Below are positions 5,120 to 52,787 of a stretch of DNA of 64,000 nucleotides, piece by piece. Where the stretch lies: assembly GCF_014205275.1 (NCBI RefSeq), contig NZ_JACHND010000001.1, forward strand, positions 4,464,001 through 4,528,000, read 5' to 3'. The translations under genes and the position numbers were made by a program. Position 1 is the first letter of the stretch; every line of letters begins with the position of its first letter. The notes beneath the pieces are model-generated. The model made no database searches and was not told the origin of the DNA. It saw only the letters and a list, made by a program, of their open reading frames with translations. Origin of the DNA: Sphaerisporangium siamense (GTDB lineage: Bacteria; Actinomycetota; Actinomycetes; Streptosporangiales; Streptosporangiaceae).

Positions 5120-8100
5120 ATGGGATCTTCTTCGGTGACATCGCCCTTGACCGGCCTGCGCGAACGCCTGCCCGCGCTCATGCTGCGCGACGAGCTGAGG
5201 CTTCGCCGCCGCATCGACGGCGCACGCAAGGTGCGCGACCACAAGGCGCTGCGGGCCATCGCCGACCAGGTGACGGGCCAGATCGAGGCGGCCGAGGCCA
5301 GGGTCGGGGCGCGCCGGGCCCTGGTGCCCGCTCTCACCTACCCCGAGGCCCTGCCGGTCAGCATGCGCAGGGACGAGATCCTCGCGGCCGTGCGCGACCA
5401 TCAGGTGGTCATCGTCGCGGGCGAGACCGGGTCCGGCAAGACCACCCAGATCCCCAAGATCTGCCTCGAACTCGGCCGGGGCGTCAAGGGCCAGATCGGT
5501 CACACCCAGCCGCGCAGGATCGCCGCCCGCACCGTGGCCGAGCGCATCGCGGAAGAGCTGGGCATCCCCCTCGGCGGCGCCGTCGGCTACAAGGTGCGCT
5601 TCACCGACCACTCCGGCGACGACACCCTGGTCAAGCTGATGACCGACGGCATCCTGCTGGCCGAGATGCAGCGCGACCGCCTGCTGTCCCGCTACGACAC
5701 GCTGATCATCGACGAGGCCCACGAGCGCAGCCTCAACATCGACTTCATCCTCGGCTACCTCAAACAGCTCCTGCCCCGCCGCCCCGACCTCAAGGTGATC
5801 ATCACCTCGGCCACGATCGACCCCGAGCGCTTCTCACGCCACTTCGGCGACGCTCCCGTCATCGAGGTCTCCGGCCGCACCTACCCCGTCGAGGTCCGCT
5901 ACCGCCCGATCACCGACGACCAGGAGGACCAGGCGCAGGCGATCGTCGACGCGGTGGACGAGCTCTGCGCCGAGGGTCCTGGCGACATCCTCGTCTTCCT
6001 CAGCGGCGAGCGCGAGATCCGCGACACCGCCGAGGCCCTGAAGGGCCGCGACGAAGAGGTGCTCCCGCTGTTCGCGCGGCTGTCGGCGGGCGAGCAGCAC
6101 CGGGTCTTCCAGCAGCACCGCGGGCGCAGGATCGTCCTGTCCACCAACGTCGCCGAGACCTCCCTCACCGTCCCGGGCATCAAGTACGTCATCGACCCCG
6201 GCTTCGCCCGCGTCTCCCGCTACAGCCACCGGCTGAAGGTCCAGCGCCTGCCCATCGAGCCGATCTCGCAGGCGTCGGCGAACCAGCGCAAGGGCCGCTG
6301 CGGCCGCACCTCCGACGGCGTGTGCGTCCGCCTCTACTCCGAGGAGGACTTCCTCGGCCGGCCTGAGTTCACCGATCCCGAGATCCTGCGCACCAACCTC
6401 GCCTCGGTCATCCTGCAGATGACCACGCTCGGCCTCGGCGACATCGCGGCCTTCCCGTTCGTGGAGCCGCCCGACCAGCGGCAGGTCAAGGACGGCGTCA
6501 ACCTGCTGCACGAGCTCGGCGCCTTCGACGACGACCGCAAGCTCACGCCCATCGGCGGCAAGCTCGCCCAGCTCCCCGTCGACCCCCGTCTCGCCCGCAT
6601 GGTGCTCGCCGCCCACGACAACGGCTGCGCCGAGGAGGTCATGGTCATCGCCGCGGCCCTGTCCATCCAGGACCCCCGCGAGCGGCCCGCCGACAAGCAG
6701 GCCCAGGCCGACCAGAAGCACGCCCGCTTCGCCGACAAGGAATCGGACTTCCTCACCTTCCTGAAGCTCTGGGACCATCTGCGCGAGCAGCAGAAAGAAC
6801 TGTCCTCCAGCCAGTTCCGGCGCATGTGCAAGGCCGACTACCTCAACTACCTGCGCGTGCGCGAATGGCAGGACCTCTACAGCCAGCTCCGGCAGGTCGC
6901 CACCGGCATGGGCGTCACGCTCAACTCGGCCCGCGCCGAGCCGTACGCCGTGCACGTCTCGCTGCTGGCGGGCATGCTCTCCCACATCGGCGTCATGGAC
7001 GTCGACAAGGACGCCGACAAGAACGGGGCCGGTGCGCGCCGCCGCGCCATGCGCGAGTACCTGGGCGCCCGGGGTGCGAAGTTCGCGATCTTCCCCGGCT
7101 CCGCGCTGTTCCGCAAGCAGCCCCGGTGGGTCATGGCCGGCGAGCTGGTCGAGACCTCGCGGCTGTGGGCGCGCGTGGTCGCGAAGATCGAGCCGCAGTG
7201 GATCGAACCGCTCGCCGGCCACTTGGTCAAGCGCACCTACAGCGAGCCCCACTGGGAGAAGAGCCAGGGCGCCGTCATGGCGTCCGAGAAGGTCACGCTG
7301 TACGGGGTGCCGATCGTCGTGGACCGCAAGGTCAACTACGGGCGGGTCGACCCCGAGCTGTCGCGCGACCTGTTCATCCGCCACGCCCTGGTGGAGGGCG
7401 ACTGGGACACCCACCACCGCTTCCTGAAGGACAACCGCCGCCTGCTGTCGGAGGTCGAGGAGCTGGAGGCCCGCGCGCGGCGGCGCGACATCCTGGTCGA
7501 CGACGAGACGCTGTTCGACTTCTACGACAAGCGCGTCCCCGATCACGTCGTCTCCGCGCGCCACTTCGACACCTGGTGGAAGCGCGAGCGGCAGACCCGG
7601 CCGGAGCTGCTCACCTTCACCTCCGACATGCTCATCAACGCGGGCGCCGACGCCGACGACCTGCAACAGGCCTACCCCGACGCCTGGCGGCACCTCGGCC
7701 AGCGCATGCGGCTCACCTACCAGTTCGAGCCCGGCGCCGACGCCGACGGCGTGACCGTGCACGTCCCCCTGCAGATCCTCAACCAGTTCGAGGGCGACGG
7801 CTTCGACTGGCAGGTGCCGGGCATGCGCGAGGAACTCGTCACCGAGATGATCCGCTCGCTGCCCAAGCCGCTGCGCCGCAACTTCGTGCCCGCGCCGAAC
7901 TACGCCAAGGCCGTGCTGGAGCACGTCACGCCCGGCAAGGAACCGGTGGCCGAAGCGGTGTCCCGCGAGCTGTCCCGGCTCACCGGCGTCCAGGTGCCCG
8001 CCGACGCGTTCGACCCCGCCCGCCTGCCCGACCACCTGCGCGTCACCTACCGGGTGGTGGACGAGCGCAAGCGCACCGTGGGCGAGGACAAGGACCTGGC

Positions 8101-39510: not shown

Positions 39511-40650
39511 CTATGGGTCAAGGACGAGAAGCGCGCCGGGCGCTCGGGTCATGGCGCGGGCCCCGGTCTCTGTACATTCCACTACATCTCCCACCCGCGC
39601 TCCGTAAAGGTCGGGCACGTGGATGCCGGGTTCCACGATCATCGTCATGCCCGGGGCCAGGACGGTGCGGTCGTCCGCGGCGAGACGGAGGCCCTCGACC
39701 GGCTCCAGGCCGACTCCATGGCCGAGCCCGGGGGAGACGTAGGCGCCGTACCCGCTCTCGTCGAGCACGGCCTCGGCCGCCGCGTGGACGTCGGCGGCCG
39801 TCGTGCCGGGCCGCACGGCGTCGGCGGCGGCGTCGCGCGCGGCGAGCAGCACCGCGTACACCGCGTCGAAGTCCTCGGGCGGCTCCGCCACGACGAACGC
39901 GCGGCCCGCGTGGGCGTGGTAGCCCTCGTGCCGGGCGGTCACCCGGATCGTGACCGCGTCCCCTGGGTTGATCACCCGCTCGCCCGGCAGGTGGCGCGGA
40001 CGCGCGGTGTTCTCGCCCGCCGCCACGACGACCGACACCAGCCCGGACGCGCCCGACTCCCCGGCCAGCCGCGCCGCCATGGCGCGCTCGGTGCCGCCGA
40101 ACCATCGCAGGTGCGGCGCGGTGGCGAGCACCAGGTCGGCCGCGGCGGCGGCCCGCGCGATCGCGGCCAGCTCCTCCGGCCGCTTGACGGCGCGCAGCGG
40201 CGCGAGGACGGCGGAGGCCAGCACGAGGTCGGCGGTCAGGCCGAGCGCGAACAGCTCGCGCACCCGCATCTCGGGGTCCACGGCGACCCGCGACGCCGTC
40301 CGGGGGATCAGCGCCGCCGCCCGCGCCGCCTCGGTCGCGAACCCGGGCGGACGGCCGGGGGCGAGGACGAGGAAGCCCGAGGCGTCGTGCCCGGCCACGT
40401 ACCGCAGGTCGGTGGAGGACCGCAGGACCAGCGCGTCCAGCCCCGCCTCCGCCATCGCGGCGAGAACCGCGGCCGGCACTCCATCGGCGGGCGACCAATC
40501 GGCCCGCACTTCATCGGCCCGCACTTCATCGGCCCGCACTTCATCGGCCGGCACCCCGGAGGCGGGCACTCCATCGGCGATGGTTAACCCATCGGTGCTT
40601 ACCCCGTCGGCGCTCAAACCCTCGCCGTGCCCCTCGGCCTTGTTCGTCAC
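39511..40650 (-). CDS. M24 (Xaa-Pro peptidase-fold) protein with a degenerate metal site
   Basis: A 379-residue pita-bread-fold protein. The first about 60 residues are acidic repeats (VRADE x3). The N-terminal domain follows (LVLRSSTDLRYVAGHDASGF), then the M24 core. Family metal ligands are D-D-H-E-E. Aligning motifs by eye, GDAVTIRVTAR puts Arg236 at the first Asp, YHAHAGR puts His247 at the second, GLGHGVGL keeps His311, MIVEPG keeps Glu340, and ARVGD puts Gly354 at the last Glu. A normal dimetal centre seems impossible, so it may bind rather than cleave peptides. The GTG at 40650 overlaps the DppF stop, making it the last gene of the peptide-transport operon. Confidence 0.78.
   Translation of the reverse strand: MTNKAEGHGEGLSADGVSTDGLTIADGVPASGVPADEVRADEVRADEVRADWSPADGVPAAVLAAMAEAGLDALVLRSSTDLRYVAGHDASGFLVLAPGRPPGFATEAARAAALIPRTASRVAVDPEMRVRELFALGLTADLVLASAVLAPLRAVKRPEELAAIARAAAAADLVLATAPHLRWFGGTERAMAARLAGESGASGLVSVVVAAGENTARPRHLPGERVINPGDAVTIRVTARHEGYHAHAGRAFVVAEPPEDFDAVYAVLLAARDAAADAVRPGTTAADVHAAAEAVLDESGYGAYVSPGLGHGVGLEPVEGLRLAADDRTVLAPGMTMIVEPGIHVPDLYGARVGDVVECTETGARAMTRAPGALLVLDP
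40501..40545. repeat. Three perfect 15-bp tandem repeats in the M24 gene
   Basis: GGCCCGCACTTCATC occurs three times without mismatch, followed by a degenerate fourth copy at 40546-40560. It encodes a 5-residue acidic repeat in the protein N-terminus. Perfect identity suggests recent slippage. Confidence 0.9.
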
Positions 40651-41555
40651 GGGTACAGCCAGCAGGACACCGGTCCCGGAGCGGGCTCCTTCTCCGCGCA
40701 GACGTCCATCGCCATCGGGCAGCGCGGGTGGAAGCGGCAGCCCGGCGGCGGGTCGGCGGGGTCGGGGACGTCCCCGGCCAGCTCCTGCGGCAGCCTGCCC
40801 AGCCCGTCGGCCTCCGGCACGGCCCGCAGCAGCGCCTGGGTGTACGGGTGGCGGGGGGCGGCCCAGACCTCGGCCGTCGGCCCGGTCTCCACGATCTTCC
40901 CGAGGTACATGACCGCGATGCGGTCGGCGATCAGCCGTACGACGGACAGGTCGTGGCTGATGAACAGCAGCCCGGCCCCCGACTCCACGGCGAGGTTGCG
41001 CATCAGCGTCGCGACCTGCGCCTGCGCCGAGGCGTCCAGCGCAGAGATGGGCTCGTCCCCGATGAGCAGGGTGGGACGCGCGGCGAGCGCGCGGGCGATG
41101 GCGATGCGCTGCCGCTGCCCGCCGGAGAACTCGTGCGGGTAGCGCGAGGCCATCGCGCCGGGCAGGCCGACCCGCTCCAGCATCCCCGCGGGCGTGGTGC
41201 CGCGGTCGCCCGCGATCTCCAGGCCGTCGGCGATCTGCGCGCCGACCCGCCGCCGGGGGTTGAGGGAGGCGTACGGGTCCTGGAACACCATCTGGATCTT
41301 GGTGAGGGCCTTGTCCCTGCGGCGCAGGCCGAGCCGGGTCACCGTCCCGCCCTCGAACCTGATCGCGCCCCCGCCGGCGGGGACGAGCCCGCACACGGCC
41401 CTGGCCAGCGTGGACTTGCCGCACCCCGACTCGCCGACCAGCCCGACGACCTCGCCCGCCGCGACGCTCAGGCTCGCGCCCGCGACGGCCCGCACGGCGG
41501 GGCGGCCCGGCGTCCGGTGGTCGACGACCAGGTCCTCCACGGTGAGCAGGCTCAC
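40647..41555 (-). CDS. Oligopeptide/dipeptide ABC transporter ATPase (DppF-like)
   Basis: A 302-residue ATPase. Walker A is GESGCGKSTLARA, the Q-loop VFQDPYASLNP, the signature FSGGQRQRIAIARAL, Walker B LLIGDEPISALD, and the H-switch FISHDLSV. The C-terminal oligopeptide-transporter extension ends CRFHPRCPMAMDVC, the usual cysteine-rich (iron-sulphur type) motif of the Dpp/Opp ATPases. The GTG at 41555 overlaps the DppD stop by 4 bp. Confidence 0.9.
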   Translation of the reverse strand: MSLLTVEDLVVDHRTPGRPAVRAVAGASLSVAAGEVVGLVGESGCGKSTLARAVCGLVPAGGGAIRFEGGTVTRLGLRRRDKALTKIQMVFQDPYASLNPRRRVGAQIADGLEIAGDRGTTPAGMLERVGLPGAMASRYPHEFSGGQRQRIAIARALAARPTLLIGDEPISALDASAQAQVATLMRNLAVESGAGLLFISHDLSVVRLIADRIAVMYLGKIVETGPTAEVWAAPRHPYTQALLRAVPEADGLGRLPQELAGDVPDPADPPPGCRFHPRCPMAMDVCAEKEPAPGPVSCWLYP

Positions 41556-42337
41556 TGGCCCTCCCTCGGCAGCGCGTCCAGCAGGGCGCGGGTGTAGGGG
41601 TGTTCCGGCTCGCGCAGCACCCGGCCGCGCGGGCCGGTCTCCACGACGAGGCCGTCCTTCATGACGCTGACGTCGTCGGCCACGGCGGACATGACCCCGA
41701 GGTCGTGCGTCACCAGCAGCACGGCCAGCCCGAGGTCGTCGCACAGGCCCCGCAGCAGCCGCAGGATGCCGGCCTGGACGGTGACGTCGAGCGCAGTGGT
41801 GGGCTCGTCGGCGATGAGGATCTTCGGCCCGCAGGCGAGCGCGACCGCGATGGCGACGCGCTGGCGCATGCCGCCGGAGAACTGGTGCGGGTAGCGGTCC
41901 ACGGCCGCGGCGGGCCCGGGGATGCGCACCTGGCCGAGCAGGTCCACGGCCCGCGTCCGCGCCTCGGCCTTGCCGATCCCCAGGTGGTGGCGCATGTGCT
42001 CGGTGAGCTGGCGTCCGATCGACAGCATGGGGTGCAGGCTGGTGGCGGGGTCCTGGAAGACCATGGCGATCTCGCGGCCCCGCACGGCGTTCAGCTCCCG
42101 CGGGCGCAGCCCGAGCAGGTCGCGGCCGTCCAGCAGGATCCGCCCCGAGGCGCGCGCGCCGTGCGGGAGCAGGCCGAGCGTGGCGAGGCCGGTCATGGTC
42201 TTGCCCGAGCCGCTCTCGCCGGCCAGGCCATGAACGCGGCCTGGGGCCAGGGCCAGGTCCACGCCGCGCAGGATCTCGTGCGGGCCGATGCCCACCGTCA
42301 GGCCCTCGACGCGCAGCACGTCACCGGAGGGGCTCAC
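41552..42337 (-). CDS. Oligopeptide/dipeptide ABC transporter ATPase (DppD-like)
   Basis: A 261-residue ATPase. Walker A is [13 protein letters not shown], the Q-loop [11 protein letters not shown], the signature [15 protein letters not shown], Walker [13 protein letters not shown] and the H-switch LVTHDLGV. It lacks the Cys-rich C-terminal extension that its partner has and ends at [16 protein letters not shown], so it is slightly short. The GTG at 42337 overlaps the permease stop (GTGA). Confidence 0.9.
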
Positions 42338-43185
42338 AGTGCACGCTCCTTGATGGCGCGGGCGGTGCGGGGGTCCAGGGCGTCGCGCAGGGTGTCGCCG
42401 AGGAAGTTGAACGCCAGGACCACGGTGAGGATGGCGAGGCCGGGGAAGGTGGCGACCCACCAGCTGTCGAAGACGTCCACGCCCGAGGCGACCATCGCCC
42501 CCCACTCGGGGGAGGGCGGCTTGGCGCCGAGGCCGAGGAACGACAGTCCGGACAGCAGCAGCAGCGCCGTGCCGATGTCGAGGGTGGCGAGCACGAGGAC
42601 GGGTCCGGTGACGTTGGGCAGGACGTCCACGCGCAGCGACCGCCAGGCCGAGAAGCCGAGCAGTCGCCCGCTGAGCACGAACTCGCGTTCCCGCATGCCG
42701 AGGACGAGGCCGCGGGTCACGCGGGCGTAGGCGGGCCAGGCGACGACCAGGACGGCGAGCACGGCGTTGGTGAGGCTGGCGCCGAGCGCGGCGGCGACGA
42801 CCATGGCGAGGATGACCGTGGGGAAGGCGAAGACGAGGTCGGCGAGCCGCATGATCGCCTCGCCCACCCATCTACCGAAATATCCGGCACAGGCGCCGAG
42901 GACGCCGCCGATCAGCAGCGACATCGCCACCAGCAGCAGCGTCAGCGGGATCGACACCCGCGCCCCGTACATCACCCGCGACAGGATGTCGCGCCCGAGC
43001 TGGTCGGTGCCGAACCAGTGTCCCGGCCCGGGAGAGGCGAGCCGGGGCAGGTCCTGGGCCAGTGGGTCGTGCGGCGCGAGCAGGGGAGCGGCGACGGCGA
43101 TCACCAGCCAGGCGGCGGCCACCACGCACCCCGTGACGGCGAGCGGCCGGCGCCACGCCTCGGGCAGCCGGGAGAGGATTCTCAT
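42334..43185 (-). CDS. Dipeptide ABC transporter permease (DppC-like)
   Basis: A 283-residue inner-membrane permease with an N-terminal OppC-type helix and about six helices in all. The stretch HDPLAQDLPRLASPGPGHWF and then GTDQLGRDILSRVMYG is the standard start of DppC/OppC permeases. The EAA-like coupling loop appears around GLVLGMREREFVLSGRLLG. It lies 28 bp downstream of DppB. Confidence 0.9.
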   Translation of the reverse strand: MRILSRLPEAWRRPLAVTGCVVAAAWLVIAVAAPLLAPHDPLAQDLPRLASPGPGHWFGTDQLGRDILSRVMYGARVSIPLTLLLVAMSLLIGGVLGACAGYFGRWVGEAIMRLADLVFAFPTVILAMVVAAALGASLTNAVLAVLVVAWPAYARVTRGLVLGMREREFVLSGRLLGFSAWRSLRVDVLPNVTGPVLVLATLDIGTALLLLSGLSFLGLGAKPPSPEWGAMVASGVDVFDSWWVATFPGLAILTVVLAFNFLGDTLRDALDPRTARAIKERAL

Positions 43186-43213
43186 CGCAGCCCCACGGTT
43201 GGACGCGGATGTG

Positions 43214-44311
43214 TCACGACAGTCTCACTCTCGGGTCGATGACCCCGTACAGGATGTCGACCACCAGGTTGATCACGACGTACACGCAGCCCACTACCAG
43301 GCCGACCCCCATCACGGCGGGCAGGTCCAGGGTGGTGGCGCTCTTGTAGGCGTACTGGCCGATGCCGGGCCGCGCGAACACCGACTCCACCAGCACCGTG
43401 CCCGACAGCAGGCTGCCGAACGCCAGGCCCGCCACCGTGATGATCGGCACCAGCGCCGAGCGCAGCACGTACCGGAAGAGGATCACCCGTCCCGGCAGGC
43501 CCTTGGCCCGGGCGGCGCGCACGTAGTCCTGCCCGAGCACCTCCAGCACCGCCGAGCGGGTGAACCGGGTCAGCAGCCCGATGGTGTACGCGGCGAGCAC
43601 CAGCGCCGGGGTGATCAGGTGGCCGACCGCCGAGGCGAACACGTCCCACTGGCCCGCGAGCGCGGCGTCCACGGTGAACAGGCCGGTCACGGCGGGCGGC
43701 GCGCTCATGTCGGGGTTGATGCGCCCGCTGCCCGGCGTGAGCTGGAGGCGGAAGAAGAACACGTAGAAGGCCACCAGGGCCAGCCAGAACGTCGGCACCG
43801 AGATGCCGATCAGGCTGAGCACGCGCAGCGCCTGGTCGGAGGGCCGGTCCCGGCGCAGCGCGGCGACCACGCCGAACGCCACGCCGACGACCAGCGAGAC
43901 CAGGATCGCGCTCCCGGCCAGCTCGATCGTGGACGGCACGAACTCGGCCAGGTCGGTGAGCACGGGGCGGTGGCTCTGCTGGCTGACGCCGAGGTCCCCT
44001 TGCAGCAGCCCGCCCAGGTAGGTCAGGTACTGCTGGGGCAGCGACTTGTCCAGGCCGTGCTCGGCACGCCACTGCGCGACGATCGCCGGGTCCCCGAGCG
44101 CGCTCTGCCCGAGGTTGGCCGTGACCGGGTCGCCGGGCACCAGGTTGGTCAGGACGAACGTGACCAGCGTGATCCCGAACGCCAGCAGCACCGCGATCGC
44201 GACGCGGCGCAGCAGGAAGCGGGCCAGAGGGTGGCGCGAGCGGCCCGGGCGGGCGGCGCGGCCCGGTGCGCCGCCCGCCCCGGCCTCACTTGGCGCCGAG
44301 GGCTGCGACAT
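43214..44311 (-). CDS. Dipeptide ABC transporter permease (DppB-like)
   Basis: A 365-residue permease. A Gly/Arg-rich cytosolic tail of about 30 residues is followed by the DppB start FLLRRVAIAVLLAFGITLV and VTFVLTNLVPGDPV. About six helices and the coupling segment YVRAARAKGLPGRVILFRYV are present. The ATG at 44311 overlaps the end of the binding-protein gene by 26 bp, an unusually long coupling overlap. Confidence 0.9.
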   Translation of the reverse strand: MSQPSAPSEAGAGGAPGRAARPGRSRHPLARFLLRRVAIAVLLAFGITLVTFVLTNLVPGDPVTANLGQSALGDPAIVAQWRAEHGLDKSLPQQYLTYLGGLLQGDLGVSQQSHRPVLTDLAEFVPSTIELAGSAILVSLVVGVAFGVVAALRRDRPSDQALRVLSLIGISVPTFWLALVAFYVFFFRLQLTPGSGRINPDMSAPPAVTGLFTVDAALAGQWDVFASAVGHLITPALVLAAYTIGLLTRFTRSAVLEVLGQDYVRAARAKGLPGRVILFRYVLRSALVPIITVAGLAFGSLLSGTVLVESVFARPGIGQYAYKSATTLDLPAVMGVGLVVGCVYVVINLVVDILYGVIDPRVRLS

Positions 44312-45905
44312 CGACCGTCCACACGGGGTGGAACGCCAGGCCCGTGACGGAGGCGGCCGTCACGATGTTCTGGCTCGGCTGGATGAGCGGGACGAACGGG
44401 CCGGTGGCGTTGAGCTTGGTCTGGATGTCGGTGTAGAGCTGCTTGCGCGCGTCGTCGCCGATGGTGACGGCGGCCTTGTCACCCAGCTCCTCCAGGGCCT
44501 TGTCGGCGCCCTTCTTCCAGCCGGAGCGCAGGCCCACGGTGTTGCCGGGGAGGAAGACCAGGTAGTCGGTCGGGTCAGGGTAGTCGGGGCCCCAGTACCA
44601 CAGGCCGAGCTCCTCCTTGCCCTTGCGGTAGTTCTCCAGCGCGGTCGCCACCGGGGCGGGGGCCAGGTCGACGGTGATGCCGACCTCCTTGAGGTTGGCC
44701 TGGATCCGCTCGGCGAACGGCTGGAACGACAGGCCCTGCAGGGTCAGGTCGCTCGGGTACTCCAGCTTGAGCGTCGGGTTGCTCACCCCGCTGGCGGCGA
44801 CGGCGGCCTTGGCGCCCTCGACGTCCCGCTTGACGGCCTGGTCGGGCGGCAGCGCGCCGAGCAGCATCGTCGGGATCACGCCGGGGGCCTGGACCGAGCC
44901 CTCGCCGGCCAGCTCCAGCAGGCCCTGGTAGTCGATGCCCTTGCGGACCGCCTCGACGATCTTGGGGTTGCTCGACGTCCTGCTGACGGCCGTGTCCTGG
45001 TTGGCGAGCAGGAACACCATGTTGGCCGAGGCCGTCTTGGTGGTCTGCTGGCTTCCGCTCACCGTCTTGATCTGGTCGCCGGACAGGTCCAGCGCCACCT
45101 GGCTGTCGCCGCGCTGGACGTTCAGCTTCTGGGTGGCCGACTCGACGTTGCGCAGCACGACCTTGCCGTAGGTGGGCTTCTTCTGGCCCCAGTACTTCGG
45201 GTTGGCGGTCAGCACGACCTGCGACTGGGCGTTGAACGACTGCAGCGTGTAGGGCCCGGACCCGGCGGAGGCGCCGTTCAGGTACTGCTCGGCCTTGTCC
45301 GAGGAGTCCTCGGCTCCGCCGTTGGCCTTGACGACCTTGGAGTTCAGGATGCCGAGCGCGGGGTTCGGCAGGATGAACGGCAGCGCGGGCTTGGGGGTCT
45401 CGGAGGTCAGCGCGACCGTCGTGTCGTCGGTCTTGGCCACCTTGACGCCGTCGAGCAGGAAGGACGGGTTCCCCTTCAGGTCGCGCACGCGGTTCAGGGA
45501 GAACACGACGTCGTCGGCCGTGACGGGCGACCCGTCGGAGAACGTGGCGCCCTGGCGCAGCTTCAGCGTGAGGGTCTTGCCGTCGGAGGACTGCTCGTAG
45601 GACTCGGCCAGCGCGGGGACGGGCTTGGTGACGTCCGACCCCTCGAAGGTGAGCAGGGTGTCGTAGAGGGCCTTGCCGATGATCAGGCCGGTGGGCTCGT
45701 AGTTGCGGCCGGGGTCCGCGGTCTTGAGGGTGAAGGACGCGTCCATCACCAGGGTCTTGCTCGCGGTCCCTCCCGCGCTCTGCGCGGGCGTGGTGGACGT
45801 GCCGCCACCGGAGCAGGCGGCGAGGGAGAGGGCGCCCGTGAGCAGGACCGGCAGCAGAGCCGCCCTCGCCTGCCGTGCCGGACGGCGCCGCATACGGGTC
45901 GCCAT
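44286..45905 (-). CDS. Dipeptide/oligopeptide-binding lipoprotein (DppA-like)
   Basis: A 539-residue extracellular solute-binding protein of family 5. It has a lipoprotein signal with lipobox LAAC near residues 28-31, followed by a Gly/Ser/Thr linker. Signature features include ALAESYEQSSDGKTLTLKLR, GATFSDGSPVTADDVVFSLN and GIPTMLLGA-type segments in lobe II (VIPTMLLGALPPDQ). The ligand is not predictable, but the operon suggests peptides. The start follows GGAGGAAACAGC. It is the first gene of the transport operon and divergent from the Lrp regulator. Confidence 0.92.
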   Translation of the reverse strand: MATRMRRRPARQARAALLPVLLTGALSLAACSGGGTSTTPAQSAGGTASKTLVMDASFTLKTADPGRNYEPTGLIIGKALYDTLLTFEGSDVTKPVPALAESYEQSSDGKTLTLKLRQGATFSDGSPVTADDVVFSLNRVRDLKGNPSFLLDGVKVAKTDDTTVALTSETPKPALPFILPNPALGILNSKVVKANGGAEDSSDKAEQYLNGASAGSGPYTLQSFNAQSQVVLTANPKYWGQKKPTYGKVVLRNVESATQKLNVQRGDSQVALDLSGDQIKTVSGSQQTTKTASANMVFLLANQDTAVSRTSSNPKIVEAVRKGIDYQGLLELAGEGSVQAPGVIPTMLLGALPPDQAVKRDVEGAKAAVAASGVSNPTLKLEYPSDLTLQGLSFQPFAERIQANLKEVGITVDLAPAPVATALENYRKGKEELGLWYWGPDYPDPTDYLVFLPGNTVGLRSGWKKGADKALEELGDKAAVTIGDDARKQLYTDIQTKLNATGPFVPLIQPSQNIVTAASVTGLAFHPVWTVDVAALGAK

Positions 45906-46025: not shown

Positions 46026-46670
46026 ATGACCGATATGTCAGGCTCGCCATCGCCCGGGACCGGCGTCCCTGGACGGATCGGCATCGGCCTGCAGCTCGAC
46101 GCGATCCACATGAAGATCCTGGAGGTCCTGCGCGAGAACGGCCGCATCTCGGTCGCGGCCCTCGCCGAGCGGGTCGGCATCTCCCGCGCCAGCGCCTACA
46201 CCCGGTTCGAGGCGCTGCGCGCCGACGGCGTCATCAAAAGGTTCACCGCCGAGGTCGACCACCTCAGGGCCGGCCTCGGCATCACCGCGCTCGTCTTCGT
46301 GACCGTGCGCCAGCAGATGTGGAAGCAGTTCCGCGCCCAGCTCGCCCAGATGCCCGAGGTCGAGTACTGCGCGATCACCACCGGGCAGCACGACGCGATG
46401 ATCCAGGTCAGGATGGCCGACGTCGCCGCCGTGCACGCGCTGGTCACCGAGCGGCTGGCGAGCATCCCCGCCGTCAAGGCCACCGAGACCGTGTTCATCC
46501 TGGACGAGGTGCTGCGCCGGCCGTACGTGCTGCCCTCCGACCGGCGCCAGGGACGGCCGCAGCACCGCGCCGCCCCGGCCGAGCCCCCGCCCCCCTCCGG
46601 CGTGCCGCTCGGCAAGATGCGCTTCACCAGCGCCGCCGAAGGCCGCGCCTCCATGCACAAGGAGCCCTGA
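46026..46670 (+). CDS. Lrp/AsnC-family transcriptional regulator
   Basis: A 214-residue regulator. After a Gly/Pro-rich lead, the HTH is LDAIHMKILEVLRENGRISV to AERVGISRASAYTRFEAL. The RAM effector domain follows (FVTVRQQMWKQFRAQLAQMP, CAITTGQHDAMIQV). A Pro-rich tail of about 50 residues is longer than usual. Divergence from dppA, and the amino-acid pathway nearby, make it the likely local regulator responding to an amino acid. The ATG at 46026 has GAGGA 7 nt ahead; an upstream ATG at 45984 lacks one. Confidence 0.85.
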   Translation: MTDMSGSPSPGTGVPGRIGIGLQLDAIHMKILEVLRENGRISVAALAERVGISRASAYTRFEALRADGVIKRFTAEVDHLRAGLGITALVFVTVRQQMWKQFRAQLAQMPEVEYCAITTGQHDAMIQVRMADVAAVHALVTERLASIPAVKATETVFILDEVLRRPYVLPSDRRQGRPQHRAAPAEPPPPSGVPLGKMRFTSAAEGRASMHKEP

Positions 46671-46673
46671 CCG

Positions 46674-47024
46674 TCAGACCTCCTCGCACACGCTGACCTG
46701 CGGCGTGTCGTCCCCGTCGAAGGTGAACTCCTCCACGAGGCGCAGGCGGCCGTCCGGGAGCGTCTCGATGCGGCTGGAGCTGCGCCCCCCGGCCCGGCCG
46801 CCCGCCTTCAGCGCGTGCACGTACGACAGCTCGACGCGGTCGTCGTCCCGGGTGCCGACGAAGCGGCCCTGGATCACCGTGTCGCCGTCGTAGCTGCCCC
46901 AGATCAGGCCGTCGGCCTCCTCGTAGGAGAACCGCGTCGGCGCCTCGGCGTTCACCTCGCTCGCCGTGGAACTCACCATGATGAAACGCCGGCCGTTGAG
47001 AAGATTCGCACTCGTGTCGCTCAC
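46674..47024 (-). CDS. Small beta-rich protein of the family often labelled n-acetylglutamate synthase
   Basis: A 116-residue protein. It reads LLNGRRFIMVSSTASEVNAE, SYEEADGLIWGSYDGDTVIQ, GRFVGTRDDDRVELSYVHAL and ETLPDGRLRLVEEFTF. The pattern matches a family found in bacilli and actinobacteria that databases often call n-acetylglutamate synthase, with no GNAT motif and probably wrongly. Real function is unknown. It follows the racemase gene by 101 bp on the same strand and may belong to that operon. GTG start at 47024, with a weak ribosome-binding site. Confidence 0.65.
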   Translation of the reverse strand: MSDTSANLLNGRRFIMVSSTASEVNAEAPTRFSYEEADGLIWGSYDGDTVIQGRFVGTRDDDRVELSYVHALKAGGRAGGRSSSRIETLPDGRLRLVEEFTFDGDDTPQVSVCEEV

Positions 47025-47125
47025 GTCACCGCATCGTGCCCTTCCCCGCCGACGGCGCAACCAGGGCTGGACGTTTCGCTCCCGGTTCCCGGGACGACGG
47101 GGTGATCCGTCTGGCCGGCGGCGTC

Positions 47126-48232
47126 TCAGGCGGGGATCCACTCGGTGGACGTCGTCACCTCGCGCAGGACGCCGGCGAGCGGCGCCACGCCGAGGCCCGG
47201 GCCCGCGGGGACGGGCAGGTGGCCGTCCCGCAGGACGAACGGCTCGGTGACGTCGGTGGCGAAGTAGCGGCCGGAGGCCGAGGTGTCGCCGGGCAGTGTG
47301 AACCCGGGCAGGGCGGCCAGCGCGACGTTGGCGGCCCGGCCGATCCCGGTCTCCAGCATGCCCCCGCACCAGACCGCGATCCCGTGCGCCCGGCACACGT
47401 CGTGGACGCGCCGCGCCTCGATGTACCCGCCCACGCGCCCCGGTTTGATGTTGACGATCGAGCACGCCCCGAGCGAGATCGCCGCCGCGGCGTGCCCGGC
47501 CGAGAGGATGGACTCGTCCAGGCACAGCGGCGTGTTCAGCCGGCGGGCGAGCGCGGCGTGCTGGACCAGGTCCTCCTCGCCGAGGGGCTGCTCGATCAGC
47601 AGGAGGCCGAACTCGTCCAGCCTCGCCAGGTGCGGGGCGTCCGACAGCGTGTAGGCCGCGTTCGCGTCCACCTGAAGGAGCAGGTCGTCCCCGAACCGCT
47701 CACGCACCGCGCGCACGGGAACGAGGTCCCAGCCCGGTTCGATCTTGAGCTTGACCCGCACGTACCCCGCCTCCAGATAGGCGGAGACCGCGTCCAGCAG
47801 CCGCGGCACCGAGTCCATGATGCCGACCGACACCCCGCACGGCACCCGGTCGCGGGCCGCGCCGAGGAAGCTCCCGAAGGAGCGCCCCGCCGCGCGCAGC
47901 TCGGCGTCGAGCACGGCGCACTCCAGCGCGGTCTTGGCCATCCGGTGCCCCTTGAACGGCGCGAGCGCGCGCTCGACCCCGTAGGCGTCCACGTCCGGCA
48001 GGGCGGTCACCGCCGGGACCAGGAAGCGGCGCAGCACGTCCGCGGCGCCGTCGGCGTACTCCGAGGAGTAGAGCGGCTCGGACATCGCCACGCACTCGCC
48101 CCACCCCTCCGACTCGGGCGTGACGACCCTGACCAGCAGCACGTCCCGCGCGGTCTCGGTCCCGAACGACGTGCGGAACGGCGCGACCAGCGGCATCGCG
48201 ATCCTGCGCAGCTCGACCCCGGTGATCTTCAT
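47126..48232 (-). CDS. N-succinylamino acid racemase / o-succinylbenzoate synthase (enolase superfamily)
   Basis: A 368-residue enolase-superfamily enzyme. The catalytic Lys pair is Lys163 (in KLKIEPG) and Lys263 (NIKPGRVGG). Metal ligands are Asp189 (VDANAAY), Glu214 (IEQPL) and Asp239 (LDES). These positions coincide with those I recall for the Amycolatopsis N-acylamino acid racemase. The capping domain carries TSFGTE, as in the NSAR/OSBS subgroup. OSBS activity for menaquinone cannot be excluded, but no men genes are near. GNAT and M20 genes beside it favour the N-succinylamino acid racemase role. Confidence 0.85.
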   Translation of the reverse strand: MKITGVELRRIAMPLVAPFRTSFGTETARDVLLVRVVTPESEGWGECVAMSEPLYSSEYADGAADVLRRFLVPAVTALPDVDAYGVERALAPFKGHRMAKTALECAVLDAELRAAGRSFGSFLGAARDRVPCGVSVGIMDSVPRLLDAVSAYLEAGYVRVKLKIEPGWDLVPVRAVRERFGDDLLLQVDANAAYTLSDAPHLARLDEFGLLLIEQPLGEEDLVQHAALARRLNTPLCLDESILSAGHAAAAISLGACSIVNIKPGRVGGYIEARRVHDVCRAHGIAVWCGGMLETGIGRAANVALAALPGFTLPGDTSASGRYFATDVTEPFVLRDGHLPVPAGPGLGVAPLAGVLREVTTSTEWIPA

Positions 48233-48260
48233 GATCGCGTCCCGTCCACCACATGTCCTC

Positions 48261-49055
48261 TCAAGAGCGTTCCACGACGTACTCGCCCGCCGCGGTGAAG
48301 CCGGTGATCCGGGCGCCCTCGTCCAGCAGCGCGCCCAGCGTCTCGCGCACCGCCCGCCGCCACGCCGTCGCCATGGCCGGATCCTCCCGGCGCAGCCTCT
48401 CGGCGTCCCGCGGCGTGCCGACCAGCAGCGCCCGCCCGTCCATGATCCCGCGGACCGGACGGTCCTCCCGCTCGGCCAGCGCGGGCACGGCGTCCCGCGG
48501 CGGCACGGCCGGACCCGGCCCCGCGTCCGAGCCCGGCGCGGCGATACGCCAGACCGCCAGCAGGCGGTCGGACTCGTCGCCGGCGTTCACCGCGTCCTCC
48601 ATGCGGCCGTAGAAGGACGGCAGGTACCGTTCGGGCCGCGCGCCCAGCTTGGCGATGTTGAAATGCGCGTTGCGGCGCACCAGAGGGTCGTACGTCCAGG
48701 CGATCTTCTCCAGGCCCCGCGCCAGGGCCCACGCCCGCTGGTGGAGCTTGAGCGCGAGGCCGATGCCCCGGCCCATGACGGCGCCGGTGACGTGGGAGTG
48801 CAGCCCCGTCCCCGGCGGCCCCGACAGGAAGCCGACGCTCGCGCCCACCAGCCGCTCGCCCGCGTACGCCCCGGCCACGTAGTTGCCGCTGTGCGCGAAG
48901 GCGGCCATCAGCTCCACCGTGATCGGCACGCCCGAGGGCGGCGCCTTCCATATGGCGTCGAACAAGGCGGTGACCTGCTCGAACTCCGCGATCTCGCGCA
49001 GCTCGCGCACCCGCGCCCCGGCGCGCCGCGCGGCGTCCTCGTACGCCTGTGTCAC
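48261..49055 (-). CDS. GNAT-family acyltransferase, probably the succinyltransferase partner of NSAR
   Basis: A 264-residue protein. The N-terminal half has a GNAT core: GAYAGERLVGASVGFLSG, then HSHVTGAVMGRGIGLALKLH, the acyl-CoA-binding R/Q-x-x-G-x-G loop region. AWTYDPLVRRNAHFNIAKLG follows. The C-terminal 80 residues are a family extension. In Geobacillus, a GNAT enzyme encoded with NSAR N-succinylates D-amino acids; the same job is inferred here. The GTG at 49055 overlaps the M20 stop by 4 bp and the racemase follows after 28 bp. Confidence 0.75.
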   Translation of the reverse strand: MTQAYEDAARRAGARVRELREIAEFEQVTALFDAIWKAPPSGVPITVELMAAFAHSGNYVAGAYAGERLVGASVGFLSGPPGTGLHSHVTGAVMGRGIGLALKLHQRAWALARGLEKIAWTYDPLVRRNAHFNIAKLGARPERYLPSFYGRMEDAVNAGDESDRLLAVWRIAAPGSDAGPGPAVPPRDAVPALAEREDRPVRGIMDGRALLVGTPRDAERLRREDPAMATAWRRAVRETLGALLDEGARITGFTAAGEYVVERS

Positions 49056-50155
49056 GCCGGCCCCGCCAGGACCGCCGCCACCAGCCCGGCCAGCAGCGAG
49101 CAGCGGCGCGGCATCTCCTCGACGATCACGTGTTCGTGCGCCGCGTGCGCGCCACCGCCCACCGCGCCGAGGCCGTCCAGCGTGGGGCAGCCCACCCCCG
49201 CCGAGAAGTTGCCGTCCGAGCCGCCGCCCACCGCCACGCCGCGCAGCGGGCCGAGCCCGCGCTCGGCCGCGATCCGCTCGGCCAGCTTGAACAGCGCGGC
49301 GGACGACGCGGCCTCCATCGGGGGCCGGCTGAGCCCGCCGGACAGCTCCAGCCGTACGCCGGGGACCTTGGGGGTGAGGGCGCGCAGGCGGGCGTCCACC
49401 TCCCGCTGCGAGGCCAGGTCCACCGCCCGCACGTCCACGGCGACCGATCCCCGCGCGGGGACGGTGTTGACGCTGGTGCCCGCGCTCAGCAGCGTCGGGG
49501 TCACGGTCGTGGCGCCGTCCCCGCCGTCCATCGCCGCGATGGCGAGCACCTGGTGGGCCACCTCGATGCCCGCGTTCCGGCCCTTGTGCGGCTCCAGGCC
49601 CGCGTGCGAGGCCAGGCCCTCCACCTCCAGCCGGTAGTGCGAGACGCCCTTGCGCGAGGTCTTCAGCGCCCCGCCGTCCGCGCTGGCCTCCAGGACCAGG
49701 GACGCGGCGCAGTCCCGCGCGATCTCCTCGATCAGCGGGCGGGAGGTCGGCGAGCCCAGCTCCTCGTCCCCGGTGACCAGCACGCACACCCCGTCCAGCG
49801 ACGGTAGCGAGCGCAGTGCGTGGAAGAGCTGTACGAGCCCGGCCTTCATGTCGAACACGCCGGGACCGCGGGCGACGCCGCCGGTCACCGAGAAGGGATG
49901 GGCGCGCAGGGAGCCGGTCGGCCACACCGTGTCGTGGTGGCCGAGCAGCAGGACCCGGGGCGTGCCGAAGCTCCAGCGCAGGTGGGTCACGCCCTCCACG
50001 ACCAGCGTCTCCGGCTCGGCGCCGAGGTGGCGGACGCCCAGCCTGGCCACGACCGCCGCGCTCGCCGCGACCGCGCCGTGGTCGGAGGAGAACGACTCGC
50101 ACAGGACGAGTTCCTCCAGGTCGTCCAGCATGGCGGGCAGGTCGCCGGGCGTCAT
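49052..50155 (-). CDS. M20-family amidohydrolase, probably N-succinyl-L-amino acid desuccinylase
   Basis: A 367-residue zinc peptidase/deacylase. Metal ligands are visible: HxD at His73 and Asp75 (LLGHHDTV), Asp102 (FDMKAG), Glu132 after catalytic Glu131 (TGDEEL), Glu156 (LVLEAS), and His in HAAHEHV near the C-terminus. The dimerisation lid is present. The M20 family includes carboxypeptidase G2, ArgE and DapE. Beside NSAR and GNAT genes the inferred reaction is release of succinate from the L-amino acid. ATGA overlap with the dipeptidase gene upstream. Confidence 0.82.
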   Translation of the reverse strand: MTPGDLPAMLDDLEELVLCESFSSDHGAVAASAAVVARLGVRHLGAEPETLVVEGVTHLRWSFGTPRVLLLGHHDTVWPTGSLRAHPFSVTGGVARGPGVFDMKAGLVQLFHALRSLPSLDGVCVLVTGDEELGSPTSRPLIEEIARDCAASLVLEASADGGALKTSRKGVSHYRLEVEGLASHAGLEPHKGRNAGIEVAHQVLAIAAMDGGDGATTVTPTLLSAGTSVNTVPARGSVAVDVRAVDLASQREVDARLRALTPKVPGVRLELSGGLSRPPMEAASSAALFKLAERIAAERGLGPLRGVAVGGGSDGNFSAGVGCPTLDGLGAVGGGAHAAHEHVIVEEMPRRCSLLAGLVAAVLAGPA

Positions 50156-51210
50156 AGGACGTCCTCCGGCTTGCTCTCGGCCGGACGGCCCAGCTCGGCG
50201 CGGAACAGCCGCATCACGTTCCCGCCGAGGATCTTGCGCACCTCGTCCTCGCCGAAGCCGCGCCGCAGCAGCTCCTCGGTGACCAGCGGCATGCCCGACG
50301 GCCCGTCCAGCCCCGGCACCGACGCGAGAACGTCCAGGCCGGTCGTGCTCGGGCTCTCGCACGGCGGGGTCAGGTCGTCCATCACCTCGCGGACGAAGTC
50401 CGGGCCCAGGCCGACGTGGTCGATGCCCGCGACCTCCGCGACGTGCGCGATGTGGTCGCCGAGCCGCTCGATCGTGTACCCCTCCGGCTTCTCCGCCAGG
50501 AACGCGGCCAGGAAGTTCACGCACACCACGCCGCCGCCCGCCGCGACCGCGCGCAACTGGTCGTCGGTGAGGTTGCGGTGGTGGTCGCGCAGCGCGCGGG
50601 CCGAGGAGTGCGTCGCGATGACCGGCCGCGTGGCGATCTCCAGCACGTGCGCCACGCCGGACGCGCCGAGGTGCGAGATGTCGAAGACCATGCCGAGCCG
50701 CTCCATCTCGGCGAGGGCGGCCACGCCCTCGCTGGTCAGGCGGCTGCCGGTGCCGTCCTGGCCGCTGCCGTCGGCGAGCGGCGTGCGCCCCCAGTGCGCG
50801 ATGGAGGCCACGCGGACGCCCAGGCGGTGCAGGGTGGGGATCAGCTCGACGCTGGCGTCGACGCCCGGCATGCTCTCCAGGGCGATGACCAGGGCGATCC
50901 TGCCCAGCGCCACGGTCTCGTCGATCTGCGCGCCGTCGTGGCAGATGCCGACCTCGCCGGGGTTGCCCTCCGCGATGACGTGCGCGCACTCGATCATCCG
51001 CAGGGTCTGGCGCAGCGCGCCCTCGGGGCGGTACTGCGCGTCGATGAAGACCGGCAGCACCTGCACGTCCACGCCGCCCTCGCGAAGCTGGGGCAGCCAC
51101 CGCTCACGGAAGAACGACGCCCACCGCTCCGGCGGCCTCGCCGCGACCGCCATCAGCAGGTCGTTGTGGGTGTCTGCCACGATCGCGTCCCGGTGGAGGT
51201 CAGCGAACAC
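50152..51210 (-). CDS. M19 membrane-dipeptidase-family metallopeptidase
   Basis: A 352-residue amidohydrolase-fold dipeptidase. Ligands expected for renal-dipeptidase relatives are all present: His15 and Asp17 (DTHNDLL), bridging Glu112 (LESMPG), His180 (DISH), His201 (THSSA), Arg212 (HHRN) and Asp271 (GLGPDF). It has no signal peptide, so it should act in the cytosol. Many M19 enzymes accept D-residues at the C-terminal position. GTG start at 51210 after GAGAGGAG. It is the first gene of the four-gene M19-M20-GNAT-NSAR unit. Confidence 0.88.
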   Translation of the reverse strand: MFADLHRDAIVADTHNDLLMAVAARPPERWASFFRERWLPQLREGGVDVQVLPVFIDAQYRPEGALRQTLRMIECAHVIAEGNPGEVGICHDGAQIDETVALGRIALVIALESMPGVDASVELIPTLHRLGVRVASIAHWGRTPLADGSGQDGTGSRLTSEGVAALAEMERLGMVFDISHLGASGVAHVLEIATRPVIATHSSARALRDHHRNLTDDQLRAVAAGGGVVCVNFLAAFLAEKPEGYTIERLGDHIAHVAEVAGIDHVGLGPDFVREVMDDLTPPCESPSTTGLDVLASVPGLDGPSGMPLVTEELLRRGFGEDEVRKILGGNVMRLFRAELGRPAESKPEDVL

Positions 51211-51344: not shown

Positions 51345-52787
51345 TCAGCCGAAGGTGAAGGAGCCGGGGCGCGGCGCGCGGGTGATCCGCCGGTACGCCG
51401 ACGCCGGGCCCGGCCAGTTGTTGACCACGCGCCCGGCGGCGTTCTTGTACCAGCTGTCGCAGTCGGCCTGCCAGACGGTCCGCGCGAGCGCCCGCTCCAG
51501 GGCGCGGCGCCAGGCGTCCATGGCCGCCGGGCGCACCTCCATGGGGCCGTGCGCGCTCAGCAGCGGCAGGCAGCCCATGATGTAGCGCACCTGCGCCTCG
51601 ATCATGAGGATGATCGAGTTGTGCCCGAGGTTGGTGTTCGGGCCGTACAGCAGGAACAGGTTCGGGAAACCCGGGACCGCCATGCCGAGGTAGGCCTCGG
51701 CGCCGTCCTTCCACGCCTCGCCCAGGCGCCGCCCGCCGCGTCCGACGACCTCGATGGGCGCCAGGAAGTCGGTGGTCAGGAAGCCGGTCGCGAAGATGAT
51801 CGTGTCCACCTCGCGGAGCGTCCCGCCCGCCGTCTCGATGCCGTTCCGGGTCACGCGGGTGATGGGGTCGGTCACGACCTCCACGTTCGGCCTGGTCAAC
51901 GCCGGGTAGTAGTCGTCGTCCAGCACGATGCGCTTGCAGCCGATCGGATAGGCCGGGGTCAGCCTGGCCCGCAGCGCCGGGTCGGGCACCTGCCGGTTGA
52001 GGTGCTCGGTGGCCCGCCGGGTCATCAGCGGCCGGCTCCAGCCGTCCACCAGCGCCGGGTACACCACGCTCTCGATGAACCGGTTGACCCTCCGGCGGTT
52101 GGCCGAGCGCAGCGGCGGCAGATGGCGGAACGCCGCACGCAGGCCGGGGCCGTACGCGCCGTCCGGCTTGGGGATCACCCAACTCGGCGTGCGCTGGTAG
52201 ACGTCCAGATGGGCGACGACCGGGGCGACGCGCGGGATGAACTGCGCGGCCGAGGAGCCGTTGCCGATCACGGCGACCCTGCGCCCGGCGAGGTCGTGGC
52301 CGTGGTCCCAGCGCGCCGAGTGGAAGCTCGTCCCCGCGAACTCCCGCAGGCCCGGGATGTCGGGCAGGCGCGGCCGGTTGAGCTGGCCCACCCCCGACAC
52401 CACCACGTCGAACGGCCCGTGCTCGCCGTCGGCCGTCGTCACCCGCCAGCGTCCGCCGGCCTCGTCGAACACCGCGGCCGTGACCTCCGCGCCGAGCCGC
52501 AGCCGCCGGTGCACGCCGTACTTGCCCGCGCACCGGTCCAGGTAGGCGAGGATCTCCGGCTGGCGCGGGTAGCGCCGCGACCAGTCGTGGTCCTGCTCGA
52601 ACGAGTAGGAGTACAGGTGGGACGGCACGTCGCACGCCGCGCCCGGATAGGTGTTGTCCCGCCACGTCCCGCCGAGGCGATCCGCCTTCTCGAAGATCGT
52701 GTACGTGGTGACGCCGGCCTTCCGGAGCTGGATCGCCATGCACAGCCCGCCGAAACCGGCCCCGATGATCGCTACGTTCAGTGCCAT
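51345..52787 (-). CDS. Flavin monooxygenase, Baeyer-Villiger type
   Basis: A 480-residue FAD/NADPH enzyme. The FAD Rossmann motif is IIGAGFGGL and the BVMO fingerprint is FAGTSFHSARWD (FxGxxxHxxxW-D type). The NADPH Rossmann motif is VIGNGSSAAQ, with a late FATGFLTTDF. It would insert oxygen next to a ketone; the substrate is unknown. It lies 134 bp upstream of the dipeptidase on the same strand, with a -10-like TATACC (minus strand, 51304-51309) between, so it probably belongs to a separate unit. Confidence 0.87.
   Translation of the reverse strand: MALNVAIIGAGFGGLCMAIQLRKAGVTTYTIFEKADRLGGTWRDNTYPGAACDVPSHLYSYSFEQDHDWSRRYPRQPEILAYLDRCAGKYGVHRRLRLGAEVTAAVFDEAGGRWRVTTADGEHGPFDVVVSGVGQLNRPRLPDIPGLREFAGTSFHSARWDHGHDLAGRRVAVIGNGSSAAQFIPRVAPVVAHLDVYQRTPSWVIPKPDGAYGPGLRAAFRHLPPLRSANRRRVNRFIESVVYPALVDGWSRPLMTRRATEHLNRQVPDPALRARLTPAYPIGCKRIVLDDDYYPALTRPNVEVVTDPITRVTRNGIETAGGTLREVDTIIFATGFLTTDFLAPIEVVGRGGRRLGEAWKDGAEAYLGMAVPGFPNLFLLYGPNTNLGHNSIILMIEAQVRYIMGCLPLLSAHGPMEVRPAAMDAWRRALERALARTVWQADCDSWYKNAAGRVVNNWPGPASAYRRITRAPRPGSFTFG

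Follow-up and report, generated by a model that had tools for sequence, protein, structure and literature searches.

A candidate D-peptide salvage operon of Sphaerisporangium siamense whose racemase probably also makes o-succinylbenzoate

What might an actinomycete do with a dipeptidase, a deacylase, an acyltransferase and a racemase encoded in a single row? The question is raised by four genes in a 64,000-nucleotide stretch of the Sphaerisporangium siamense genome (contig NZ_JACHND010000001.1, positions 4,464,001 to 4,528,000; hereafter, the window), which encode, in order, an M19 (membrane-dipeptidase family) peptidase, an M20 metallo-deacylase, a GNAT-fold N-acyltransferase and an enolase of the subfamily that comprises N-succinylamino acid racemases (NSAR) and o-succinylbenzoate synthases (OSBS) (Table 1). 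We propose, with a probability of roughly 0.7, that this operon works with an adjacent importer to salvage, in the cytoplasm, peptides that contain D-residues, and, with somewhat less confidence for this part alone, that the enolase serves as an OSBS as well.

The gene order, the two 4-bp overlaps and the 28-bp gap claimed in an earlier reading of the letters alone (hereafter, the sequence-only reading) were all confirmed on the minus strand: the M19 and M20 genes share ATGA, the M20 and GNAT genes share GTGA, and the gap separates the GNAT stop from the enolase start. The catalytic residues, which the same reading had called present as far as it could check them, were found in alignments of the enolase, M19 and M20 families, the catalytic and metal-binding roles being those known for these families. 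The enolase matches PF13378 (MR_MLE; 170 bits, above cut-off) and passes the OSBS model TIGR01928 with 302.2 bits against a cut-off of 200.65, a score that cannot separate OSBS from racemase because the family evidently covers racemases too. Its closest solved structures are those of an Amycolatopsis racemase (1sja, 597 bits over residues 1–366), and the alignment is free of gaps, so that the active-site numbering is identical. The KxK motif (K161 and K163), the D/E/D metal ligands (D189, E214 and D239) and the second catalytic lysine (K263) are all present and, like R266, do not vary across an alignment of 15 sequences, of which 14 are distinct. Arg266, which is replaced by Q in PDB 7s8w, is presumably a second-shell residue tied to NSAR activity. 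Scores against models of L-Ala-D/L-Glu epimerases fall far below their cut-offs (57.4 against 343 and 54 against 500 bits).

In the M19 protein, H15, D17, E112, H180, H201, R212 and D271 are present, with the metal ligands H15, D17, E112, H180, H201 and D271 conserved across 20 aligned M19 sequences, and no signal peptide is apparent by eye, no predictor having been run. The M19 family includes enzymes that cut L,D-dipeptides, an activity that this protein may share. The M20 protein, far below the cut-offs of the DapE and ArgE models, carries H73, D75, D102, E131, E132, E156 and H337, all conserved across 45 aligned M20 sequences, and its nearest solved structure by sequence is carboxypeptidase G2 (1cg2). 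The sole Pfam match of the GNAT protein, to PF13480, lies below cut-off (17.5 against 22 bits); 27 of 40 scanned relatives match PF00583 (Acetyltransf_1) at E ≤ 1, with a best value of 1e-6. Searches of the PDB by sequence returned no matches at E ≤ 1 with the protein and four chance-level matches with a profile. An AlphaFold2 model (pLDDT 95.5) shows a GNAT fold, and Foldseek finds 333 matches to it in the PDB at E ≤ 0.001; almost every one of the best 50 is named as an acetyltransferase. These matches cover 158–198 alignment columns of 265 residues, and among the best 50 of the 333 the TM-score reaches 0.81 by target length and is just 0.42–0.50 by query length, so that a good part of the protein lies outside the match. 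Together, relatives and model point to a GNAT-superfamily acyltransferase.

To place the operon among its relatives, we used two sets of loci, which share some members (for example, L042 = L207). In a sample of 394 genomes of the class, 117 carry NSAR relatives at E ≤ 1e-60, at 145 places; we read 82 loci in context, made up of 80 of these places, one additional locus (L166) and the window, with 20 arbitrary 19.5-kb regions from genomes of that sample as control. The named loci are the 80 that ranked best among 567 confirmed relatives in a species collection. Locus counts come from tblastn, since a gene caller based on codon usage mis-sets some starts and misses genes (39 loci with the complete core by gene calls, 44 by tblastn).

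A GNAT gene accompanies NSAR at 70 of the 82 class loci, an M20 gene at 48 and both at 44, compared with none of the 20 arbitrary regions, and the tight order M20–GNAT–NSAR recurs at 44 of the 80 named loci. Opp permeases, present at 32/82 class loci and 0/20 arbitrary regions, track this core: they occur at 27 of the 44 core loci and at 5 of the 38 others. Of the 80 named loci, 37 have Opp-type permease genes at a distance of no more than 11 kb from NSAR. Two further families distinguish the class loci from the arbitrary regions (0/20 for each), namely PF00144 serine peptidases/beta-lactamases (42/82) and a PucR regulator (39/82). M55 peptidases (2/82), S66 peptidases (1/82), Amidohydro_3 proteins (8/82) and Opp binding proteins (7/82) show no significant enrichment over 0/20, and the M55 and S66 counts are biased upward because L166 was added for the M55 gene listed beside its NSAR. 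Five loci (L039, L041, L043, L044 and L045) show a lone NSAR gene after a large open reading frame (ORF), with neither GNAT nor M20 nearby; the ORF encodes a GntP-family permease in L039 and belongs to the same cluster in three others, and its call is split in L043.

The dipeptidase in front of the core is likewise conserved. M19 lies directly upstream of M20–GNAT–NSAR at 18 of the 80 named loci, in eight genera of two families: Sphaerisporangium, Rhizohabitans, Microbispora, Planotetraspora and Spongiactinospora of the Streptosporangiaceae, and Streptomyces, Embleya and Yinghuangia of the Streptomycetaceae. The four-gene order, for which the sequence-only reading had asked for a survey of relatives, is therefore kept well beyond the window. 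One of the 18 loci (L232), whose M19 match is partial (120 residues), was not included in the M19 tree; there, the window protein falls in a clade of 41 rows, many of them adjoining M20, GNAT or NSAR. Among listed places in 53 genomes that have both genes, M19 and NSAR genes lie within 6 kb of each other six times (five without the window), against 0.21 expected; three of these pairs are of the operon type, and three involve a distant M19 on the opposite strand, 30–32% identical to that of the window. The first class sample, in which a window-type M19 preceded the core at 2/80 loci besides the window (L042 and L046), had suggested a local accident, an idea overturned by the named loci and the M19 tree.

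Where M19 is missing, its place is often taken by another peptidase. An S9/serine-beta-lactamase-type protein occupies it at 17 named loci; none of the 44 tight-order loci has both, and 9 have neither. By gene calls, 11 of 39 core loci have, immediately before M20, an S9-type ORF roughly 1,100 codons long. Its second half contains an SxxK motif in all three examples examined, and the representative in L061 consists of an S9 domain followed by PF00144. PMC3347556 groups PF00144-type proteins with D-aminopeptidases, DD-carboxypeptidases and beta-lactamases, a grouping that makes D-peptide activity of these front-end proteins plausible but not certain. Other arrangements are seen in L099, where M20 and NSAR have an M55 D-aminopeptidase gene and Opp genes in their vicinity, and in L166, where importer, GNAT, NSAR, M55, M20 and S66 (LD-carboxypeptidase) genes form a one-strand row. 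In this last locus (L166:5636-18972, from genome G101, in which both menD and menC are absent), a gene for a PLD-domain protein follows S66. A known core with exchangeable peptidase front ends fits D-peptide salvage, and the earlier proposal of such a pathway is supported in part, gaining strength from the linked importer and from the replacement of M19 by peptidases of other types, some of them from families with D-peptidase members.

The route that we envisage begins with the Opp-type importer, which would take up short peptides. The M19 dipeptidase, as one of several exchangeable front ends, would free the D-amino acid, as family knowledge and the exchange at this place suggest. By analogy with the Geobacillus pathway, the GNAT protein may then acylate the D-amino acid, with succinyl-CoA as the most likely donor and succinyl as the cap. 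The enolase, given its residues, is predicted to racemise the N-acyl-amino acid by a two-lysine 1,1-proton transfer, and the M20 enzyme would deacylate the L-form alone, so that the D-to-L conversion would run one way.

A second role for the enolase is suggested by an absence that the sequence-only reading did not notice. The genome contains menB, menD and, beside menD, a gene for an AMP-binding protein that we read as MenE by position, and it has no match to PF02621, a futalosine-pathway family; canonical menC is absent, the best match reaching 87 bits against a cut-off of 288. The window enolase is not the canonical actinobacterial MenC, scoring 65.6 bits against the same cut-off (NF002782), and it does not lie beside menD (enolase at 4511129 and menD at 5979721 of the same contig). 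In seven relatives (L152–L158), menC is found directly beside menD; in the genome of the window, menD and the menE-like gene stand about 0.6 kb apart at this place, and the intervening sequence is unrelated, with no menC-like remnant detected by tblastn at E ≤ 10. The gap (L147, C1:5975000-5987000, 5982-6602) is repeat-like and GC-rich. Seven enolases of the genome were scored, and that of the window alone passes the OSBS model. The six further family members had been considered as the missing OSBS, with a best score of 107 bits against 200.65; an eighth PF13378 place was left unscored, its gene being read by eye as a glycolytic enolase.

The same loss recurs in the family. Among 36 family genomes, menC is missing from 7 of 16 NSAR carriers and from none of 20 non-carriers (p 0.0014 when counted by genome and 0.07 by genus), and menD is present in all ten family genomes examined, including the seven without menC. 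Planobispora takensis (G369) is one of the relatives that retain menC, and Microbispora genomes may carry two copies of NSAR. The in-frame TGA recorded in each of five family menC genes reflects a match that runs onto the terminal stop codon; a few more such codons were recorded in other families. In five Microbispora-group genomes and in G323, a menB gene fills the menC place (L148, L149, L150, L151, L164 and L165). This menB is divergent, with roughly 49% identity to its counterpart in L154. The copies of G323 and L150 share 89% identity even though their genomes are not grouped in the tree, a hint of transfer. In a tree of 16 genomes, built partly on data from the men locus itself and with weak support for the position of the window, the genomes without menC (that of the window, the Microbispora group and G323) do not group together, so that two or three separate losses are likely.

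Outside the family, we chose 80 genomes, 40 with and 40 without NSAR, and counted sub-cut-off menC matches in G065 and G029 as present. One of 32 NSAR carriers with menD lacks menC (G007, a fragmented assembly), compared with 0 of 28 non-carriers with menD. Seven of the 40 carriers have neither menD nor menC (G011, G034, G052, G057, G101, G199 and G269), and two of these seven show the tight M20–GNAT–NSAR order (L063 of G199 and L047 of G269). It is unlikely that NSAR is kept in these genomes for menaquinone synthesis by this route. The two printed readings of the actinobacterial racemase, as an OSBS and as part of a D-to-L pathway, thus meet natural tests in both directions, in carriers without menD and menC and in carriers that lost menC. 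The double dissociation argues for a real racemase role, with an added OSBS role where menC was lost. The enolase of the window is probably a true racemase that also makes o-succinylbenzoate in this genome. We lean towards its performing the OSBS step of menaquinone synthesis here, as the empty menC place between menD and the menE-like gene suggests. By a narrower preference, we favour the broader picture in which menC was lost in the window and at least one other Streptosporangiaceae lineage, leaving the salvage NSAR/OSBS as sole OSBS and at work in two pathways in vivo, with the core as a platform for exchangeable D-peptidases.

The operon appears to have been put together from parts, as the same parts also occur separately in family loci. 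A block of RNaseH, ZnR and Nif3 genes, often with a flavin monooxygenase gene, precedes M19 in the family, whose genomes sampled here include Microbispora siamensis, Planobispora takensis and Nonomuraea maritima. At 15 family M19 loci, M19 is followed by M20 and GNAT in seven cases (L119, L124, L126–L128, L132 and L137), by M20 alone in one (L134) and by neither in seven (L125, L129–L131, L133, L135 and L136), and NSAR is at this place in none of the 15. The full row stands at the M19 place in the window, L187, L188 and Planotetraspora (L213). The flavin monooxygenase gene is found before M19 at 9 of the 15 loci too, with no evident link to the pathway. Beyond menD in G141 (L151:11846-13320), M20- and M19-like pieces are visible by eye, possibly a decaying operon copy; at this same place, two sister genomes of G141 (L042 and L046) carry a full second M19–M20–GNAT–NSAR set.

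Several of our counts weigh against the salvage reading. The tight core order is lacking at 36 of the 80 named loci, 26 of the 44 tight-order loci have no Opp permease within 11 kb, and M19 is not enriched in the class sample (5/82 against 0/20, p 0.58). All p values are too small, because the loci are related to each other. Nor is M19 strictly tied to the core, given that 8 of the 15 family M19 loci have no M20–GNAT pair behind it and none has NSAR at that place. Outside the family, the absence of both menD and menC is no rarer in NSAR non-carriers (11/40) than in carriers, so that NSAR does not track the men pathway. As to uptake, the sequence-only reading had placed a dipeptide importer and an Lrp regulator alongside the operon; the Lrp/AsnC gene stands, and the importer is supported as a member of the broad Opp/Dpp/Nik class, its DppB and DppA scores (254.9 against 590 and 56.7 against 1005 bits) and its Opp2B score lying below cut-off. 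Nickel and dipeptide models score it alike, all below cut-off, and its substrate is therefore not readable from sequence.

Three other explanations compete with salvage by this route. The enolase could be solely an OSBS for menaquinone, with neighbours engaged in unrelated peptide catabolism, as the men genes without a canonical menC and the unique pass of the OSBS model would allow. We regard this as very improbable: NSAR is commonly found with GNAT and M20, including in genomes without menD and menC (G199 and G269) and in family genomes that retain menC (L032–L034, L036 and L037), and Arg266, presumably needed for NSAR activity, is invariant in the aligned set. The sequence-only reading had named exclusive OSBS activity as the finding that would undo it, and these genomes make that outcome unlikely. 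Scarcely less improbable is that M19 is a passenger of the old RNaseH–ZnR–Nif3–(flavin monooxygenase)–M19 block, behind which M20–GNAT–NSAR happened to land. M19 does keep its place without M20 and GNAT at 7 of the 15 family loci, but M19 proteins of the same clade precede M20–GNAT–NSAR in Streptomyces, Embleya and Spongiactinospora with no such block within the DNA read, and elsewhere other peptidases fill the M19 place.

A better candidate than either, though still unlikely, is that the chemistry is the same and the acyl group (N-acetyl, for example) or the purpose differs, for instance to disarm D-amino acids that come from antibiotics or from competitors. The Geobacillus precedent reportedly uses succinyl, and the many loci with importer and peptidase genes speak for a use of peptides. 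Pointing the other way, the GNAT protein has no close relative of solved structure, and the M20 protein sits nearest carboxypeptidase G2 and far from DapE and ArgE. In addition, NSARs accept many N-acyl groups, according to PMC7431475. With these alternatives weighed, D-peptide salvage with an added OSBS function is the reading that we retain.

The remaining genes of the region are listed in Table 1. The importer block spans 45905..40647 on the minus strand and is followed by the M24 peptidase gene. Within 11 kb of NSAR, an Lrp gene occurs at 12 and an M24 peptidase gene at 15 of the 80 named loci. A 116-aa ORF between the enolase and Lrp genes, passed over in the sequence-only reading, has no Pfam or NCBIfam match; it is present at 10 of the 80 named loci (Sphaerisporangium and Nonomuraea), all ten of which also have the Lrp gene. 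The closest named relatives of the window are Sphaerisporangium loci (enolase 86% identical in S. album, M19 90%), and two of them (L187 and L188) share its gene order from RNaseH through M24.

Table 1 Features of the operon and its surroundings, in window coordinates.
Feature	Position	Strand	Remarks
M19 (membrane-dipeptidase family) peptidase	51210..50152	-	352 aa, GTG start; PF01244 273 bits
M20 metallo-deacylase, carboxypeptidase-G2-like	50155..49052	-	367 aa, ATG start; PF01546 83.9 and PF07687 53.5 bits, both above cut-off
GNAT-fold N-acyltransferase (predicted)	49055..48261	-	264 aa, GTG start
NSAR/OSBS-subfamily enolase	48232..47126	-	368 aa, ATG start
Small ORF between enolase and Lrp genes	47024..46674	-	116 aa
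Lrp/AsnC-family regulator	46026..46670	+	PF01037, PF13412; divergent from importer
Family-5 solute-binding protein, Opp/Dpp/Nik-type importer	45905..44286	-	PF00496 237 bits
ABC permease, DppB-like	44311..43214	-	PF00528/PF19300
Second ABC permease	43185..42334	-	tblastn matches in importer clusters at other NSAR loci
ABC ATPase 1	42346..41552	-	tblastn and gene call; start uncertain
ABC ATPase 2	41555..40647	-	tblastn
M24 peptidase, Xaa-Pro dipeptidase-like	40650..39511	-	PF00557; overlaps the ATPase 2 gene by 4 bp
Flavin monooxygenase gene upstream of M19	51345-52787		

Actinomycetes live among cell-wall debris and D-containing peptides, and on the reading given here their use of D-amino acids would gain a concrete route; the exchange of peptidases before the GNAT–NSAR–M20 core suggests what the pathway eats. 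If the second role of the enolase is also true, a racemase from peptide salvage has come to perform one of the reactions that make the respiratory quinone. In the openly licensed literature, we found no description of the peptidase front ends, of the link to an importer or of menC loss in NSAR carriers.

The conversion by GNAT, NSAR and M20 is itself already known from Geobacillus kaustophilus, in which Sakai et al., in 2006, reportedly described the GNAT, NSAR/OSBS and M20 enzymes as a succinyl-based pathway from D- to L-amino acids. The window encodes the same three enzyme classes together, with presumably the same chemistry; unlike that system, it adds M19 in front, an Lrp regulator and an importer, and its relatives swap the dipeptidase for other peptidases. 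The gap-free likeness to the Amycolatopsis NSAR/OSBS recalls the actinobacterial ‘N-acylamino acid racemase’ that Palmer, in 1999, is said to have recognized as an OSBS, and the contrast is that the window enolase resides in a genome without canonical menC, where OSBS duty is likely. Actinobacterial MenC (PRK02901) belongs to the same superfamily and presumably catalyses the same OSBS reaction as the window enolase, which differs from it in its low MenC-model score and in its distance from menD. The murein-peptide use encoded by ykf and dpp in Bacillus subtilis, with its dipeptide epimerase and DppA D-aminopeptidase, similarly combines an enolase-family racemase or epimerase, a peptide importer and a D-peptidase, and M55 proteins, of the DppA family, stand beside NSAR in L099 and L166; in contrast to the B. 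subtilis epimerase, the racemase of the window is of the N-acyl type, far below the cut-offs of the epimerase models.

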